Assembly: GCF_018304825.1 (NCBI RefSeq)
Contig: NZ_CP072649.1
Span: 1 to 64,000 of the forward strand
Reading direction: 5' to 3'
Origin: Chloracidobacterium validum
GTDB taxonomy: Bacteria; Acidobacteriota; Blastocatellia; Chloracidobacteriales; Chloracidobacteriaceae
DNA: 64,000 nucleotides
The position numbers were made by a program, and so were the translations under genes. Below are positions 16,911 to 22,709 of the stretch, one piece after another (the first letter of the stretch is position 1; every line of letters begins with the position of its first letter). Below the pieces are notes generated by a model, which had not been told where the DNA came from, ran no database searches, and worked only from the letters and a program-made list of their open reading frames with translations.

Positions 16911-16969
16911 AATGTTGTGGTGTAGGTTTTCTTGAACACAAGCAAATTCACACCACAGAATATTGTGGT
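16911..16969. promoter_or_regulatory. Repeated TGTGGT/ACCACA elements around the H1-like gene start site
   Basis: AATGTTGTGGT (16911-16921) recurs with one mismatch as AATATTGTGGT (16959-16969). Between them lies ACACCACA (16950-16957), an exact inverse of TGTGGTGT at 16916-16923. The inner pair ACCACA (16952-16957) and TGTGGT (16964-16969) can also form a small hairpin. The cluster covers the predicted start and leader, so it could be an operator or an RNA structure. Confidence 0.5.
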
Positions 16970-17003
16970 TCAGTCCATCCAAACACCGCAAAGGAGATTC
17001 CCC

Positions 17004-17507
17004 ATGGCGACCAAACGCAAAACGACGGCAAGTACCGACGAACCCAAAAACTCACCCAAGAAAGCGCCCGCCGCCAAGAAAACTGCCACGGTTGAGGCTG
17101 CCGTGACGGCAACGGCTAAAAAAGCGACTCCCAAAAAGGCGGCGGACCCGAAAGAACCCGCCAAGCCTGTAGCGGCAGCCACGAAGCCAGAAGCTGAAAA
17201 GCCACAGGCCAAAAAGTCAGCCGCCGCCAAGCCAGAACCTGCCAAGAAAGAACCCGCGCAGAAGGCAACGCCTCAGAAAGAAACCAAGTCGAAGGCGGCA
17301 GCCAAGGTGGCTCCAGCGGAGAAGCCAGATGTGAAAGCGGTCAAGTCAGCGACGAAACCCACAGCAGACAAGAAGGCTGAAAAGAAACCAGCCGCAAAAC
17401 CCGCTGAAGCCGCGCCGGAGCCGGTCAAGAAGTCAACGAAGAAAACGGCCAAAGCTGAAGCGCCAGCCGCGCCAACCAAGAAGCCAACGACGAAGAAAGC
17501 GAAGTAG
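17004..17507 (+). CDS. Histone H1-like Lys/Ala/Pro-rich DNA-binding protein
   Basis: A 167-residue protein made almost entirely of Lys, Ala, Pro, Thr and Glu, with repeated AKK, PKK, KPA and KKA motifs and no hydrophobic core, like bacterial histone H1-like tails (HctA/AlgP type). The protein is strongly basic overall but contains many Glu. It probably binds DNA or RNA without a folded domain. A perfect AAGGAG at 16991-16996 sets the ATG at 17004, and a near-consensus promoter lies 100 bp upstream, so high expression is expected. It is transcribed divergently from the small exported protein. The family assignment rests on composition only; a ribosome- or envelope-associated role cannot be excluded. 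Confidence 0.7.
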   Translation: MATKRKTTASTDEPKNSPKKAPAAKKTATVEAAVTATAKKATPKKAADPKEPAKPVAAATKPEAEKPQAKKSAAAKPEPAKKEPAQKATPQKETKSKAAAKVAPAEKPDVKAVKSATKPTADKKAEKKPAAKPAEAAPEPVKKSTKKTAKAEAPAAPTKKPTTKKAK

Positions 17508-17690: not shown

Positions 17691-19073
17691 ATGAAGTTAT
17701 GTCCGGTTTGCCACGCCTGCTATGAGGATGTCGCGCGCTTCTGCGTTCGGGACGGGTCTCCGTTATTGGACTCGCTCCCCGTTTCAACGACCTTGCAGGG
17801 GCGTTTTCGCTTTCTGCGCCTGTTGACGACCGGGCGCATGGGTGATGCCTATCTCGCGTCGGACGCGGTAGCGAATCACCAAGTGCTCATCAAAGCGCTG
17901 CCGGCTTACTTGTTTATCGATCCGGAGATTCGCCAGCGGTTCATGTCAAACTTGGCGCGGCTGACCACGGTTCGGTCGCCGAGCCTGGTGGATTACCATG
18001 CGCTCATTGAAATGGACCGGGGGTATGTGGCGCTCGTGACCGAGTATGTCGTCGGTCATGACCTGCGGGAGGAACTTCGCTCCCATCAGCCATTATCGCC
18101 ACGGCGTGCCGCCACCATCGCGCGTGAAGCCGCACAAGGGTTGGCAGCCGCCCATGCCGTGGGCATCCCGCACTTCGATCTCAAACCCGAAAACATCCTA
18201 CTGTTTGCCGATGCCGAGACCCAAGCGCTCAGGGTGAAGGTGGCAGACGTCGGATTATCCTGCCTCAAGGAAAGCATGACCGGGTCGGTGACAGACGACA
18301 CCGGGTCAGAAATCGCTCGCCTGCCATATTACACATCGCCGGAAACGTGTTTGGGGGAGGCACTTGACGCGCGAACCGACATTTACGGTCTGGGGATTAT
18401 CCTCTACGAAATGTTGGCAGGTGTGCCGCCATTCCAAGCCAAATCACCGGGCAGGATTTTGAGCATGCAGGCTACGGAGACTCCCAAGCAGCTTTCAGCG
18501 TCGCTTCCAGAGCCACTCGTCGCGTTGACGATGCGGATGCTGGCCAAGCAGCCCGGCAACCGTCCGCAAACGATGACCGAAGTCTGGACTGCGTGCCACG
18601 ACTGGTTGCAGTCCGTGGGCGATACAGAACGCTTCACGGTGAATCAGAACATGCCGCCGGCGAGCAAGATCGAGTCACCAAACGGAGCTGAATCACCATC
18701 TGCCCAGGCGACGCTCGCGCCATCCCACGATCTCCCGCTGCGGTTGACCATCATTGACGCCGATGACGAAGGCAATCGTTCCCGAACGATTCCGGGACGG
18801 GTTCAGGAAGCTTCGCCCCAGGGCATGCGCATTCTGACCGGCACGATTGAAACCGGTCAGCTCAACATCATCCGCGACCACACAGTGGCTTTCAAAAACC
18901 GGCTGGACATTGAAGTTGACCTGCCCGATGGGACGGTCCACATGAGTGGCTTTGCCGTGCGCTACAACCGCGCGCCGGACGGCCGCAACTGGGTCGTGTA
19001 TATCTACATCAAGGAAATGCCCCGCGGCGACCGCCGCCGCTACGAAGCCTTTCTCAGACAATCAGCAGACTGA
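17691..19073 (+). CDS. Zinc-ribbon Ser/Thr protein kinase fused to a PilZ-like domain
   Basis: A 460-residue protein. Residues 4-25 form a zinc ribbon (CPVCHACYEDVARFCVRDG). Residues about 35-310 are a Hanks-type kinase: ATP-site Lys K68 in VLIKALP, catalytic loop HFDLKPEN (H161-N168, a non-RD type), and DVG (186-188) in place of DFG. The activation segment ends PYYTSPETCLGEALDARTDIYGLG. After a linker, residues about 345-455 resemble a PilZ domain, with GRVQEASPQGMRI and a following barrel, but a clear RxxxR motif is hard to assign, so c-di-GMP binding is uncertain. No membrane segment is seen. The phosphorylation target is not evident from neighbours. It converges with the IPT/TIG gene. Confidence 0.8.
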   Translation: MKLCPVCHACYEDVARFCVRDGSPLLDSLPVSTTLQGRFRFLRLLTTGRMGDAYLASDAVANHQVLIKALPAYLFIDPEIRQRFMSNLARLTTVRSPSLVDYHALIEMDRGYVALVTEYVVGHDLREELRSHQPLSPRRAATIAREAAQGLAAAHAVGIPHFDLKPENILLFADAETQALRVKVADVGLSCLKESMTGSVTDDTGSEIARLPYYTSPETCLGEALDARTDIYGLGIILYEMLAGVPPFQAKSPGRILSMQATETPKQLSASLPEPLVALTMRMLAKQPGNRPQTMTEVWTACHDWLQSVGDTERFTVNQNMPPASKIESPNGAESPSAQATLAPSHDLPLRLTIIDADDEGNRSRTIPGRVQEASPQGMRILTGTIETGQLNIIRDHTVAFKNRLDIEVDLPDGTVHMSGFAVRYNRAPDGRNWVVYIYIKEMPRGDRRRYEAFLRQSAD

Positions 19074-19091: not shown

Positions 19092-19113
19092 GGGCCGCGC
19101 ACTAACGCGGCCC
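19092..19113. terminator. Bidirectional hairpin between convergent kinase and IPT/TIG genes
   Basis: GGGCCGCG (19092-19099) pairs with CGCGGCCC (19106-19113) around CACTAA. It lies 18 bp past the kinase stop and overlaps the last codons of the opposing gene, so it could end both transcripts. Confidence 0.6.
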
Positions 19114-22100
19114 AACAATTTGCCAGCGCGGATCGGGGACGGTAGGGAGTGCCACGCTTTGCACCAGCGCCAGATCGCGCAGGAGCCAGATAACGTTTTG
19201 TCCCGTGGTCAGGTTGCGCCACACGAGATCAGTGCTTCCATCCTGGTTGTAATCGCCAAGCGCTGCCAGTTGCCAAGCCGGCCCGGGCGACGGGAGCGGA
19301 CGACTATCCACTGCCGTATCTTCAATCACCGTGACAACCCGCGCCGCCCCGGTAGCTCGGTCATACAGGAAGAGTTCAGGGGTCTGACTGCTTTCAACCT
19401 GTCCACTCCCGCCAGGTGGGATTTCCACATTACCAACCTCGCCACTTCCGACAATCGTTTCGGTCGGCAGTAGGCCGGGAATGGACAAGGGGACGACTTG
19501 CGCACGTGTCACGCGGTTCATCAGCCAAAGCTCAACGGCATTCGTCACCGTGTTGCGGCGGATGATGTCCGGCCGGCCGTCCAGATTGAAATCACCCGTC
19601 CCTGAAAGCGTCCAGTTGAGATCGGTTTGCTCCGGCGTTATTGGCAGCGACGCCGTTGGGATCACCCCCGCAAAGGCCCACAAGGCATCAAAACCCGTAA
19701 TGGTTTGGTTACGCCACAGAAGGTCGGTGTTCCCATCACCGGTGAAGTCCGCTGTGCCACCAATGACCCAGCAATCTTCAGCAAAGGGCAGGAACTCGCT
19801 CCGCACGAAGCTCGTCCCGTCCATGACCCAGATGGCGCTCTGCCCGGTCGTCTGGTTACGCCAGACCACCGTGGAGTTGCCGGTGCCAAAATCACCCGGA
19901 GGAATGAGTGGCGCGTCTCTCCATCGTCCGGCCAGTGGAATGTCGCCAGCTTGCCCAAAGCTTACGACGAAGTCGGCAAAACCAGTCGTATTGGTGTTTC
20001 GGAAGAAGAAGACTCCAGACCGGAAAACCCCAAGGGTCGTGACGCCATCTCCATCCCAGTCTCCCGCCACAGGGAAGTCGGTTGCTATCCCATAAAAGAA
20101 GCTTATGTCAGCGTCGCCAGAAATATTCTCATTGCGCAGGAAAACGAGACCAGCCGAGGCACGGTACACACCAACCGTTGTCCGACCATCACCATCCCAG
20201 TCACCCACAATGGGAAGATCGGTTGGCAGTCCATAGTTGACGATAATGTCTGGACTCCCGGCGGTGTTGGCGTTACGGAGCAGAAACAGGCCCCGTCGAA
20301 AGACACCGATACTGTCGAAGCCCTTTCCAGTCCAGTCGCCAGCCAGAGGAGCATCACCGGTCTGACCAAACGGCACCGTTATGACCGGTGCTGCCACGGC
20401 ATTTGCATTCCGAATGAGAAACTGTCCGTTACGGAAAAGCGCCACGGTGGATTTTCCGTCACCGTCCCAATCACCGACGACCGGCCGATCGCCCGGTTCT
20501 CCCAGGGGTACAGCAATGTCCGGTGGGCCAGGCGTATTGGATTGCCGGAGCAGGAAAGTCGAGTTAGGTCGAAACACGCCAATGGTCTGCGGGGGAACAC
20601 GCGGTATGACGGTAAAACTGGCGCTGCTCGTCGCCGTTCCGGCGGGCGTCGTGACGCTAATCGGCCCGGTCGTTGCCCCAACTGGAACGGTCGCTGTGAT
20701 TTGGGTTGGACTAACGATACTGAATGACGCAAGCAAATCACCAAACGTGACGGTCACGGCTTCCTCGAAGTTCATCCCTATTATGGTAACGGACGTGCCG
20801 ACCGTCCCTGAATTCGGTGAAAAACTCAGAATGCTCGGCGGTTGGAGAACGACAAATGGCGTGCTGCCGGCCGCTGTCCCAGCAAGCGTTGTCACGCTAA
20901 TCGGCCCGGTCGTTGCCCCAACCGGAACGGTCGCCGTGATCTGAGTCGGGCTGACAACGGTGAAGCTCGCCGCAACCCCGTTGAAGCGCACATTGGCTAC
21001 ATCCACAAAGTTTGCACCGACAATGGTGACGACCGTCCCCACCAGACCCGACAGCGGCGTGAAGCTGCTGATGACCGGTGGCGGTATGACAATGAAGTTG
21101 GGCGTGCCCGTCGCCGTGCCGCCGGCCGTCGTCACGGTAATCGGCCCGGTCGTTGCCCCAACCGGAACGGTCGCCGTGATCTGAGTCGGGCTGACAACGG
21201 TGAAGCTCGCCGCAACCCCGTTGAAGCGCACGTCGATCACACCCACAAAGTTTGAACCGAAAATGGTGACGACCGTCCCCACCGGACCCGACGGCGGCGT
21301 GAAGCTGCTGATAACCGGTGGTGATGCTATGACGATGAAGTTGGGCGTGGCCGTCGCCGCCCCAGCAGTCGTCGTGACGCTAATCGGCCCGGTCGTTGCC
21401 CCAACCGGAACGGTCGCCGTGATCTGAGTCGGGCTGACAACGGTGAAGCTCGCCGCAACCCCATTGAAGCGCACGTCGATCACACCCACAAAGTTTGAAC
21501 CGAAAATGGTGACGACCGTCCCCACCGGACCCGACGGCGGCGTGAAGCTGCTAATGACCGGCGGTAGTATAACGACGAAGTCTGTCGCACTCGTCGCTAC
21601 ATCTCCATCTCGTTCCACGGTAATGCGTCCAGTTGTAGCACCGGGAGGAACGGTTGCGTCGATCTGCGAGTCACTCACGACCGTGAAGGTCGCAGCCACG
21701 CCGTTGAAAAAGACGGCTAGCCCACTGCTCTCCTTGCTGCGTCCATACCCACCTGTAATAGGATGGTCGAAGCCCGTACCGGTGATAGTGACCAGTGTGC
21801 CGACCGGGCCGGAAGTCGGCGTGAAACCTGTGATAGTCAGTGATGAAAATGTAACCGCGCGTGAGGCCAGGCTCGACGTGGGATCAATTCCGTTTATGGC
21901 CCAACTGGATCCGCTTGTTGCGTCGAGCGGCACGGGGTCTGATAGGTACGCATAGTTGTTCACCGCGAAGGATGCTGGTGTGTTGTTGGAGGTGACGAAC
22001 GCCGTCCCGGCAAAACCAATCCGTGTCGTGTTGTCCACCCCTTCCCCTGGGACAGAGAAGCTAGAAATCGCAGGCAGTGAAGCTGCCATTACTTGGTGAC

Positions 22101-22344
22101 CAGAGCCAGGCTCCGATACGACGGATTGGTTGAACCGAACGCGGGCCGCCCGGACTGTTCCACCAGTGTGACGCTTGTGCCAAGCAGCGTCATGGCGCTG
22201 TCCATCTTCCATCCTCATTGGCTGCCCGGGCCAAGACATGGCAGAAACGGCGTGAGTCGCAAGGGGAGGCATGGGACAACACACCAGGCATACCACTCCA
22301 CACACCAGCAGAAAGATGGCGTTTTTGAACGAAGCAGTGCCCAT
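19102..22344 (-). CDS. Exported IPT/TIG-repeat and FG-GAP/VCBS-repeat protein
   Basis: A 1080-residue secreted protein. Residues 1-35 are a signal peptide (AIFLLVCGVVCLVCCPMPPLATHA). Residues about 165-585 hold five IPT/TIG immunoglobulin-like modules, each of the form ISSFTPPSGPVGTVVTIFGSNF, then VRFNGVAASFTVVSPTQITA and VPVGATTGPISVTT. Residues about 590-1080 hold FG-GAP/VCBS-like propeller repeats built on GDWDGDGxxTxGVFR and GDFNLDGRPDIIRRN. The ATG at 22344 has GGAG 8 bases upstream; a TTG six bases further up is not preferred. The TIG modules are nearly identical at DNA level, indicating recent duplication or gene conversion. It is probably a surface or secreted adhesin-like protein; no enzyme domain is seen. 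Confidence 0.85.
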   Translation of the reverse strand: MGTASFKNAIFLLVCGVVCLVCCPMPPLATHAVSAMSWPGQPMRMEDGQRHDAAWHKRHTGGTVRAARVRFNQSVVSEPGSGHQVMAASLPAISSFSVPGEGVDNTTRIGFAGTAFVTSNNTPASFAVNNYAYLSDPVPLDATSGSSWAINGIDPTSSLASRAVTFSSLTITGFTPTSGPVGTLVTITGTGFDHPITGGYGRSKESSGLAVFFNGVAATFTVVSDSQIDATVPPGATTGRITVERDGDVATSATDFVVILPPVISSFTPPSGPVGTVVTIFGSNFVGVIDVRFNGVAASFTVVSPTQITATVPVGATTGPISVTTTAGAATATPNFIVIASPPVISSFTPPSGPVGTVVTIFGSNFVGVIDVRFNGVAASFTVVSPTQITATVPVGATTGPITVTTAGGTATGTPNFIVIPPPVISSFTPLSGLVGTVVTIVGANFVDVANVRFNGVAASFTVVSPTQITATVPVGATTGPISVTTLAGTAAGSTPFVVLQPPSILSFSPNSGTVGTSVTIIGMNFEEAVTVTFGDLLASFSIVSPTQITATVPVGATTGPISVTTPAGTATSSASFTVIPRVPPQTIGVFRPNSTFLLRQSNTPGPPDIAVPLGEPGDRPVVGDWDGDGKSTVALFRNGQFLIRNANAVAAPVITVPFGQTGDAPLAGDWTGKGFDSIGVFRRGLFLLRNANTAGSPDIIVNYGLPTDLPIVGDWDGDGRTTVGVYRASAGLVFLRNENISGDADISFFYGIATDFPVAGDWDGDGVTTLGVFRSGVFFFRNTNTTGFADFVVSFGQAGDIPLAGRWRDAPLIPPGDFGTGNSTVVWRNQTTGQSAIWVMDGTSFVRSEFLPFAEDCWVIGGTADFTGDGNTDLLWRNQTITGFDALWAFAGVIPTASLPITPEQTDLNWTLSGTGDFNLDGRPDIIRRNTVTNAVELWLMNRVTRAQVVPLSIPGLLPTETIVGSGEVGNVEIPPGGSGQVESSQTPELFLYDRATGAARVVTVIEDTAVDSRPLPSPGPAWQLAALGDYNQDGSTDLVWRNLTTGQNVIWLLRDLALVQSVALPTVPDPRWQIVGPR
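20611..21560 (-). repeat. Tandem repeats of about 240 bp encoding IPT/TIG modules
   Basis: The landmark TAATCGGCCCGGTCGTTGCC recurs at 20658, 20898, 21138 and 21381, giving periods of 240, 240 and 243 bp. A degenerate fifth unit is at about 21621. Copies two to four share long identical blocks, while flanking units have diverged. Confidence 0.9.
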
Positions 22345-22709
22345 GGTCAAATCTCCGCTACGTTATCTGGGCAATGTGGCCGGCGTGCTTCGTTGGTCAA
22401 CCGGTCGCTTGGTGCTGAAGACAGGTCGGGAAAGCACGCGCGGTTTTGGCAGAAGTCTGTTAGACAGCGAACATACCAACTAAAAAAACGGGTAAAACGT
22501 ACCGGGAGTGTAGCCAAGCCAAGGTACGTTTGCCAACCAAAGCGCTTGAGCGCGAGGGAAGCCAGCCCAAGTTTGTTTGGATGTAGGTTCAATGCTGACC
22601 CCGAACCTCAAGCAGCCTGTCGCCTAGGCTCGGTCACGGCATTCCGGTTCGACTGAGGGGGCCGGTCGGCGTACATTCCAGTCGCACTCGATACTTTTGG
22701 AGGCAGACC
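22345..22709. promoter_or_regulatory. Divergent intergenic region (IPT/TIG protein and cobalamin-binding protein)
   Basis: This 365-bp region lies between two divergent starts. On the minus strand a T-rich stretch followed by TATGTT (complement of 22470-22490) could be a weak promoter for the IPT/TIG gene. I looked for a cobalamin riboswitch ahead of the 22710 gene and did not find a convincing B12 box. No credible ORF or RNA gene is seen. Confidence 0.35.

Follow-up and report, generated by a model that had tools for sequence, protein, structure and literature searches.

A conserved fusion of a zinc-ribbon-like motif, a Ser/Thr kinase and a divergent PilZ-like domain in Chloracidobacterium validum and its family

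A single intact open reading frame of Chloracidobacterium validum encodes a 460-amino-acid protein in which a zinc-ribbon-like N-terminus and a Ser/Thr protein kinase domain with altered motifs are joined, through a variable linker, to a PilZ-like domain. The fusion is genuine and conserved, and of a general kind that is already known, with a PilZ-fold domain that is divergent. The gene, which begins with ATG, lies in the analyzed window, the first 64,000 nucleotides of contig 2, which measures 1,000,103 bases; the genome comprises two contigs and 3.66 Mb. The closest named relatives of its product come from Chloracidobacterium (78% identity). The three-part architecture proposed in the initial annotation is borne out by a Pfam Pkinase match, a CCCD motif and a predicted PilZ fold. 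The features of the gene, with the evidence for each, are the following:

17691..19073, forward strand: whole gene, zinc ribbon - kinase - linker - PilZ-like, 460 amino acids (open reading frame; full-length orthologues)
17691..17780, forward strand: zinc-ribbon-like N-terminus, residues 1-30, with Cys4, Cys7, Cys18 and Asp21 (invariant in 10/10 family fusions)
17799..18590, forward strand: protein kinase domain, about residues 37-300 (Pfam Pkinase)
17892..17894, forward strand: Lys68, the beta3 ATP-binding lysine (invariant in 10/10; aligns with the VAIK Lys of other kinases)
17949..17951, forward strand: Asn87 at the alphaC Glu position (alphaC Glu in 40/42 kinases of the genome)
18171..18179, forward strand: HFD catalytic loop, non-RD, His161-Phe162-Asp163 (sequence, kinase alignment)
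18246..18254, forward strand: DVG metal motif, Asp186-Val187-Gly188 (kinase alignment)
18612..18728, forward strand: variable linker, residues 308-346 (low identity; pLDDT <50 from residue 317 onward)
18729..19067, forward strand: PilZ-like domain, about residues 347-459, six predicted strands and a C-terminal helix (model, profile, identity)
18807..18824, forward strand: E-A-S-P-Q-G, residues 373-378, counterpart of the PilZ (D/N)xSxxG motif (motif alignment)

Below, f1 denotes the family to which the gene belongs, and f2, f3, f4, f6 and f7 denote other families of the same class. The PilZ-like domain was found in 13 of the 14 genomes of the order, and all 10 f1 genomes carry it in frames of 450-524 amino acids; in genome G011, the close homolog is a fragment at a contig end. 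A search of the class (162 genomes) gave 21 matching genomes at E<=1e-15: 11 with three-domain fusions (10 in f1 and one in f6), five with a zinc ribbon and a PilZ-like domain but without a kinase (f3), and five with nothing but short stand-alone frames of 150-181 amino acids. Across the phylum (396 genomes), 44 match at E<=0.001, with weak matches outside the class (best E-value 1.5e-5), a few of them in long frames. Because the fusion is conserved across genera, it is not a chance join. For the initial annotation, loss of the fusion in relatives would have counted against its idea, and the outcome is mixed: each of the 10 f1 genomes searched retains the fusion, but the kinase is absent from the syntenic gene of one related family, f3.

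The N-terminal Cys4, Cys7, Cys18 and Asp21 form a CCCD zinc-ribbon-like motif (CPVC...FCVRDG) that, besides the f1 fusions, is present in the f6 fusion and in all five kinase-less f3 proteins; this region of the 460-residue protein yields no Pfam or NCBIfam match. The f6 gene and four of the five f3 genes (those with surroundings examined) occupy the same locus, with the kinase missing in f3. All of these loci have a gene for a 178-amino-acid protein directly downstream and a gene for an SPFH protein beyond it, with one extra gene between in f3, and a carboxyltransferase gene is located upstream in f6 and in three of the four f3 loci. The 178-amino-acid neighbor (L178 9940-10476 and relatives), which is the adjoining gene in the four f3 loci and in f6, itself gives a sub-threshold match to NCBIfam LIMLP_15305.

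In a tree of 72 kinases, the f6 kinase groups with the f1 fusion kinases, of which seven out of 10 were included (support 0.998). Since that tree covered only 15 of the 70 further kinase matches in the f6 genome, a closer f6 paralog of the fusion kinases may exist. In the tree of PilZ-like domains, f3 is placed next to f6 (support 94/84), in an analysis for which the tool warned of long-branch joins. Parsimony and synteny favor loss of the kinase over its gain, and an ancestral fusion followed by in-frame kinase loss in f3 is the favored, simplest history; transfer of the fusion between f1 and f6 may also have occurred.

None of the seven genomes of the genus Chloracidobacterium has a match to the 178-amino-acid or SPFH neighbors of the f3 and f6 genes. 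In the window, the gene is surrounded by those for a glycosyltransferase 9 protein, a VWA protein, a protein of no assigned family and a TIG/FG-GAP protein, and the neighbors were discarded as a functional clue since those in Chloracidobacterium are unlike those in f3 and f6. Just upstream, at 16932-17507 of the window, is encoded a Lys/Ala/Pro-rich protein that looks histone H1-like to the eye and whose last 172 amino acids have no Pfam match at E<=0.001. The convergent gene at 19102-22350, on the reverse strand, encodes a protein of 1082 amino acids with five TIG stretches and FG-GAP repeats; some of the TIG repeats are nearly identical by eye.

Conservation is highest in the PilZ-like domain; the kinase is constrained too, although less so in most pairs. 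Within the genus, mean identity is 94% for the PilZ-like domain, 80% for the kinase C-lobe, 79% for the zinc ribbon, 67% for the N-lobe and 28% for the linker; against other genera, the respective values are 79%, 53%, 60%, 37% and 24%. The dN/dS ratios for six gene pairs, to be read with the caveat that several dS values are near or beyond saturation, are in the range of 0.010 to 0.050 for the PilZ-like domain and 0.03 to 0.16 for the kinase lobes, compared to 0.27 to 0.59 for the linker (four computable pairs). In the closest pair, G001-G006, the kinase C-lobe and the PilZ-like domain have similar ratios. The low dN/dS of the kinase thus indicates that this domain is under selection.

The kinase domain matches Pfam Pkinase over residues 42-297 (E-value 1.2e-32), and its best relative of solved structure is PknB (E-value 1.2e-35). 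Lys68, Asp163, Asn168 and Asp186 are invariant in all 10 family fusions, so that the Pkinase profile is accompanied by the Lys, HxD Asp, Asn and DxG Asp that define Hanks-type Ser/Thr kinases. The beta3 Lys, HxD Asp and DxG Asp, loss of any of which would mark a pseudokinase, are all kept. The alphaC Glu, HRD Arg and DFG Phe that characterize canonical RD-type kinases are, however, replaced, with N87, HFD and DVG at the respective positions. The non-RD catalytic loop and the DVG in place of DFG that the initial annotation had pointed out can indeed be read directly in the sequence.

These changes are unevenly distributed in the family. The HRD Arg is missing in all 10 fusions (Phe, Cys or Leu is found there). 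In genera 1 and 2 (eight of the 10 fusions), the metal motif is DVG, DTG or DIG, two relatives of the DVG protein having DTG or DIG, the alphaC Glu is replaced by Asn or Cys, and the first P-loop Gly is gone; the genus-2 fusion has a Glu one residue before the alphaC position. Genera 3 and 4 (two of the 10) have both DFG and the alphaC Glu, and their glycine loop is normal. The f6 fusion kinase has HRD, but its metal motif is DFE and an Asp occupies the alphaC position. Among the 42 kinase matches of the C. validum genome (E<=1e-8, all of them aligned), xRD is present in 39, DFG in 39 and the alphaC Glu in 40; absence of this Glu with all four catalytic residues retained is seen in the 460-residue protein alone.

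Substitution of Val for Phe in the DFG motif would alter the regulatory spine. Since DVG keeps both the Gly and the Asp that binds the metal, this change alone does not abolish metal binding. If the kinase is active, its activity is probably weak in the genus Chloracidobacterium. An alternative is an active non-RD Ser/Thr kinase whose PilZ-like domain chooses substrates or partners, with the DVG, alphaC and glycine-loop changes tolerated. The invariant Lys, Asn and both Asp residues and the low dN/dS are compatible with such an enzyme, as are kinases L006, L007, L008 and L010 of other phyla, in which HFD coexists with a normal DFG (a set chosen in part for HFD). Against it speak the f3 orthologs, which have no kinase, and the fact that the genus has lost three features together (alphaC Glu, DFG Phe and the first glycine of the P-loop), and we regard it as plausible but on balance unlikely.

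Several other kinases came to light in these comparisons. In the same genome, L173 (G000:C2:698952-699866) has a kinase-like domain that, in the alignment of the 42 kinases, lacks the Lys, both Asp residues and the alphaC Glu and is a pseudokinase candidate. The kinase domains of L160 and L161 (G000:C1:960436-961467 and 956763-957794), about 3.7 kb apart, have identical motifs and are separated by almost zero branch length; they are probably products of a recent tandem duplication. The Myxococcales kinase L005 (7920-10823) combines a similar zinc-ribbon start with an HFD loop and VDGIG at the DFG position, a comparable set of changes in another phylum.

The C-terminal 120 amino acids have no Pfam or NCBIfam match, and the 460-residue protein does not reach the gathering score of PF07238. 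Thus, the search against PilZ suggested in the initial annotation gives no direct match, but a PilZ-like fold over about residues 347-459 is supported by a structural model, by hhalign and by matches of homologs. The AlphaFold model of the C-terminus, which was built on five close sequences, consists of six strands and a C-terminal helix, with a mean pLDDT of 72.9 (52.3-72.9 over its five runs). In a Foldseek search with this model, the first match, and the only one at E<=0.001, is the PilZ domain of YcgR (E-value 8.6e-4), and unrelated barrels begin at rank 20. When the Foldseek candidates were aligned with VIA-align, the MapZ complex gave a Z-score of 13.3 (rmsd 2.1 A, 96 residues aligned), and the highest-placed fold that is clearly unrelated was that of a pyridoxine oxidase-like protein, at rank 32 with a Z-score of 7.2. 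The predicted model therefore has the PilZ barrel fold. The full-length AlphaFold model (mean pLDDT 53.8) was too weak and was set aside for domain contacts.

Profile comparison points in the same direction. With hhalign, a profile of 17 subfamily sequences was set against one built from 25 of the order's 42 PilZ matches. The comparison gave an E-value of 2.4e-4, a probability of 43 and a score of 26.6, with 43 of 115 columns covered and the xSxxG motif in register; none of 30 column shuffles scored above 16.5, and the reversed profile scored 11.1. In a 12-row alignment of the subfamily, six members match PilZ at E<=1 (best E-value 4.2e-8), the 460-residue protein being among those that do not. 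The f6 fusion matches both Pkinase (E-value 2.3e-29) and PilZ (E-value 3e-4, with 21.5 bits where the cut-off is 22.5) in one chain. Among four close homologs scanned for PF07238 with the same cut-off of 22.5, three score 18.7-21.8 bits, including the f2 homolog (21.8) and one f3 protein (18.7), and one, the other f3 protein (L069), has no match. Given the model with its Foldseek and VIA-align results, the profile comparison and the homolog matches both below and above threshold, the C-terminal domain most likely adopts a PilZ fold and belongs to a divergent subfamily.

The RxxxR motif, sought over the 30 residues that precede the domain, before strand 1, is absent from all 10 f1 proteins, all five f3 proteins and the f2 homolog G010a. 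In the f6 fusion, RERAR, an RxxxR, lies close to the expected place, in uncertain register. RxxxR stands directly before strand 1 in six of the 20 f4 stand-alone loci and in the single f7 locus, by a by-eye reading; the RxxxR counts do not include occurrences within the domain itself (such as those in L067, L074, L077, L081 and L082). A strong contrast with the relatives in this respect was considered and dropped, given that a first set of 26 sequences contained five f4 proteins, four of them chosen for their RxxxR, and that the recount gave six of 20; the contrast is only moderate because most f4 stand-alone homologs also lack the motif, and control by c-di-GMP was rated slightly higher on this account. 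The counterpart of (D/N)xSxxG is EASPQG in all seven members of the genus and takes the DxSxxG form in the three other genera of the family.

Seven GGDEF matches in the genome and a PilZ match elsewhere than in the 460-residue gene indicate that c-di-GMP signaling is present. This PilZ match (the only one at E<=0.1), with RRDPRR and DVSPSG, is located at the end of L042 (G000:C2:102548-105796), by Pfam a fusion of GAF, class III nucleotide cyclase and PilZ domains; a fusion of the same kind is L048 in G008, and L050, L051, L053 and L054 resemble L042 by eye. With its RxxxR and DxSxxG, the PilZ domain of L042 would be a likelier c-di-GMP receptor than the kinase-fused domain and could couple c-di-GMP to cAMP or cGMP.

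The link between c-di-GMP and Ser/Thr phosphorylation that the initial annotation had proposed finds no support, RxxxR being absent from all 10 family fusions. Even so, a domain without RxxxR may bind c-di-GMP through other residues, and the protein could then be an active Ser/Thr kinase controlled by c-di-GMP via the PilZ domain. Such control would be in keeping with the predicted PilZ fold, the retained E/DxSxxG counterpart and catalytic residues, the conserved Arg351, Arg365 and Arg380 of the domain, the GGDEF proteins of the genome and the possible RxxxR of the f6 fusion; against the uniform lack of RxxxR in the family, we consider it quite improbable. Finally, a decaying gene, with the kinase as a remnant and the protein devoid of any kinase-related function, would agree with motifs that vary by lineage (DVG/DTG/DIG in f1 genera 1 and 2, DFE in f6, domain absent in f3) but is highly improbable in view of the open frame in 10 of 10 genomes and the kinase dN/dS of 0.03-0.16.

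Fusions of a kinase with PilZ are already known from Myxococcus xanthus Pkn1, a Ser/Thr kinase with a PilZ domain that, from its sequence, is predicted not to bind c-di-GMP (PMC8316039). According to the part of that source drawn on here, deletion of Pkn1 reduces sporulation, and c-di-GMP binding by Pkn1 had not been studied (PMC8316039). By description, the two proteins are alike: each combines a kinase with a PilZ domain in one chain, and in each this domain is not expected to bind c-di-GMP. The f6 relative has both Pfam families in a single chain, with PilZ just below the cut-off. They differ in that the same part of the Pkn1 account mentions no zinc ribbon (PMC8316039), whereas the protein described here has a zinc-ribbon-like motif and altered kinase motifs, and a kinase-less version exists. 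PknB-type Hanks kinases share the Lys, HxD Asp, Asn and DxG Asp with the 460-residue protein, which, unlike them, lacks the alphaC Glu and the HRD Arg, has Val for the DFG Phe and a replaced first P-loop Gly, and contains no PASTA domain by Pfam.

The PilZ domains of PF07238 (YcgR, MapZ, MrkH) resemble the C-terminal domain in the predicted six-strand barrel with a C-terminal helix and in ExSxxG/DxSxxG as the putative motif counterpart, whereas the latter has no RxxxR, no Pfam match and a nearly invariant loop, GQLNIIRDHTVAFKNRL, that by eye seems longer than its equivalent in the PilZ sequences used for the profile comparison. The stand-alone PilZ-like proteins of the class (f2, f4, f7) contain a homologous domain but are encoded in frames of about 142-193 amino acids without a kinase and, in those inspected, without a zinc-ribbon motif. 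In the open-licence literature, we found no acidobacterial kinase-PilZ fusion and no description of the zinc-ribbon form in the class, the altered kinase or the kinase-less syntenic form.

Our leading reading, which we hold with about even confidence, is a regulator like Pkn1 in which the PilZ-like domain docks a partner and the kinase is weak or ATP-sensing. The protein, in which no membrane segment was seen, would be a regulator of three parts that acts in the manner of M. xanthus Pkn1. Because the PilZ-fold domain lacks the RxxxR clamp, it most likely recognizes a protein partner or another ligand rather than c-di-GMP; docking of a protein is what we infer. A flexible linker would connect this domain to the divergent non-RD kinase module, which probably still binds ATP and Mg and in the genus would be a weak or purely regulatory enzyme, even though an active one fits too, with its four catalytic residues kept and its low kinase dN/dS. 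The zinc ribbon and the PilZ-like domain would form the constant core, and the kinase the variable part, absent from some relatives.

More speculatively, and with confidence well short of even, the zinc ribbon and the PilZ-like domain could be the true signaling core of a lineage-specific family whose partner or ligand is something other than c-di-GMP, the kinase becoming an ATP-sensing switch that was cleanly removed from mid-gene in one lineage. The orthologs constitute a natural series, from near-normal kinase motifs through altered motifs to no kinase, with the PilZ-like domain kept throughout, and this series is suited to asking what a PilZ domain without the usual c-di-GMP clamp contributes.
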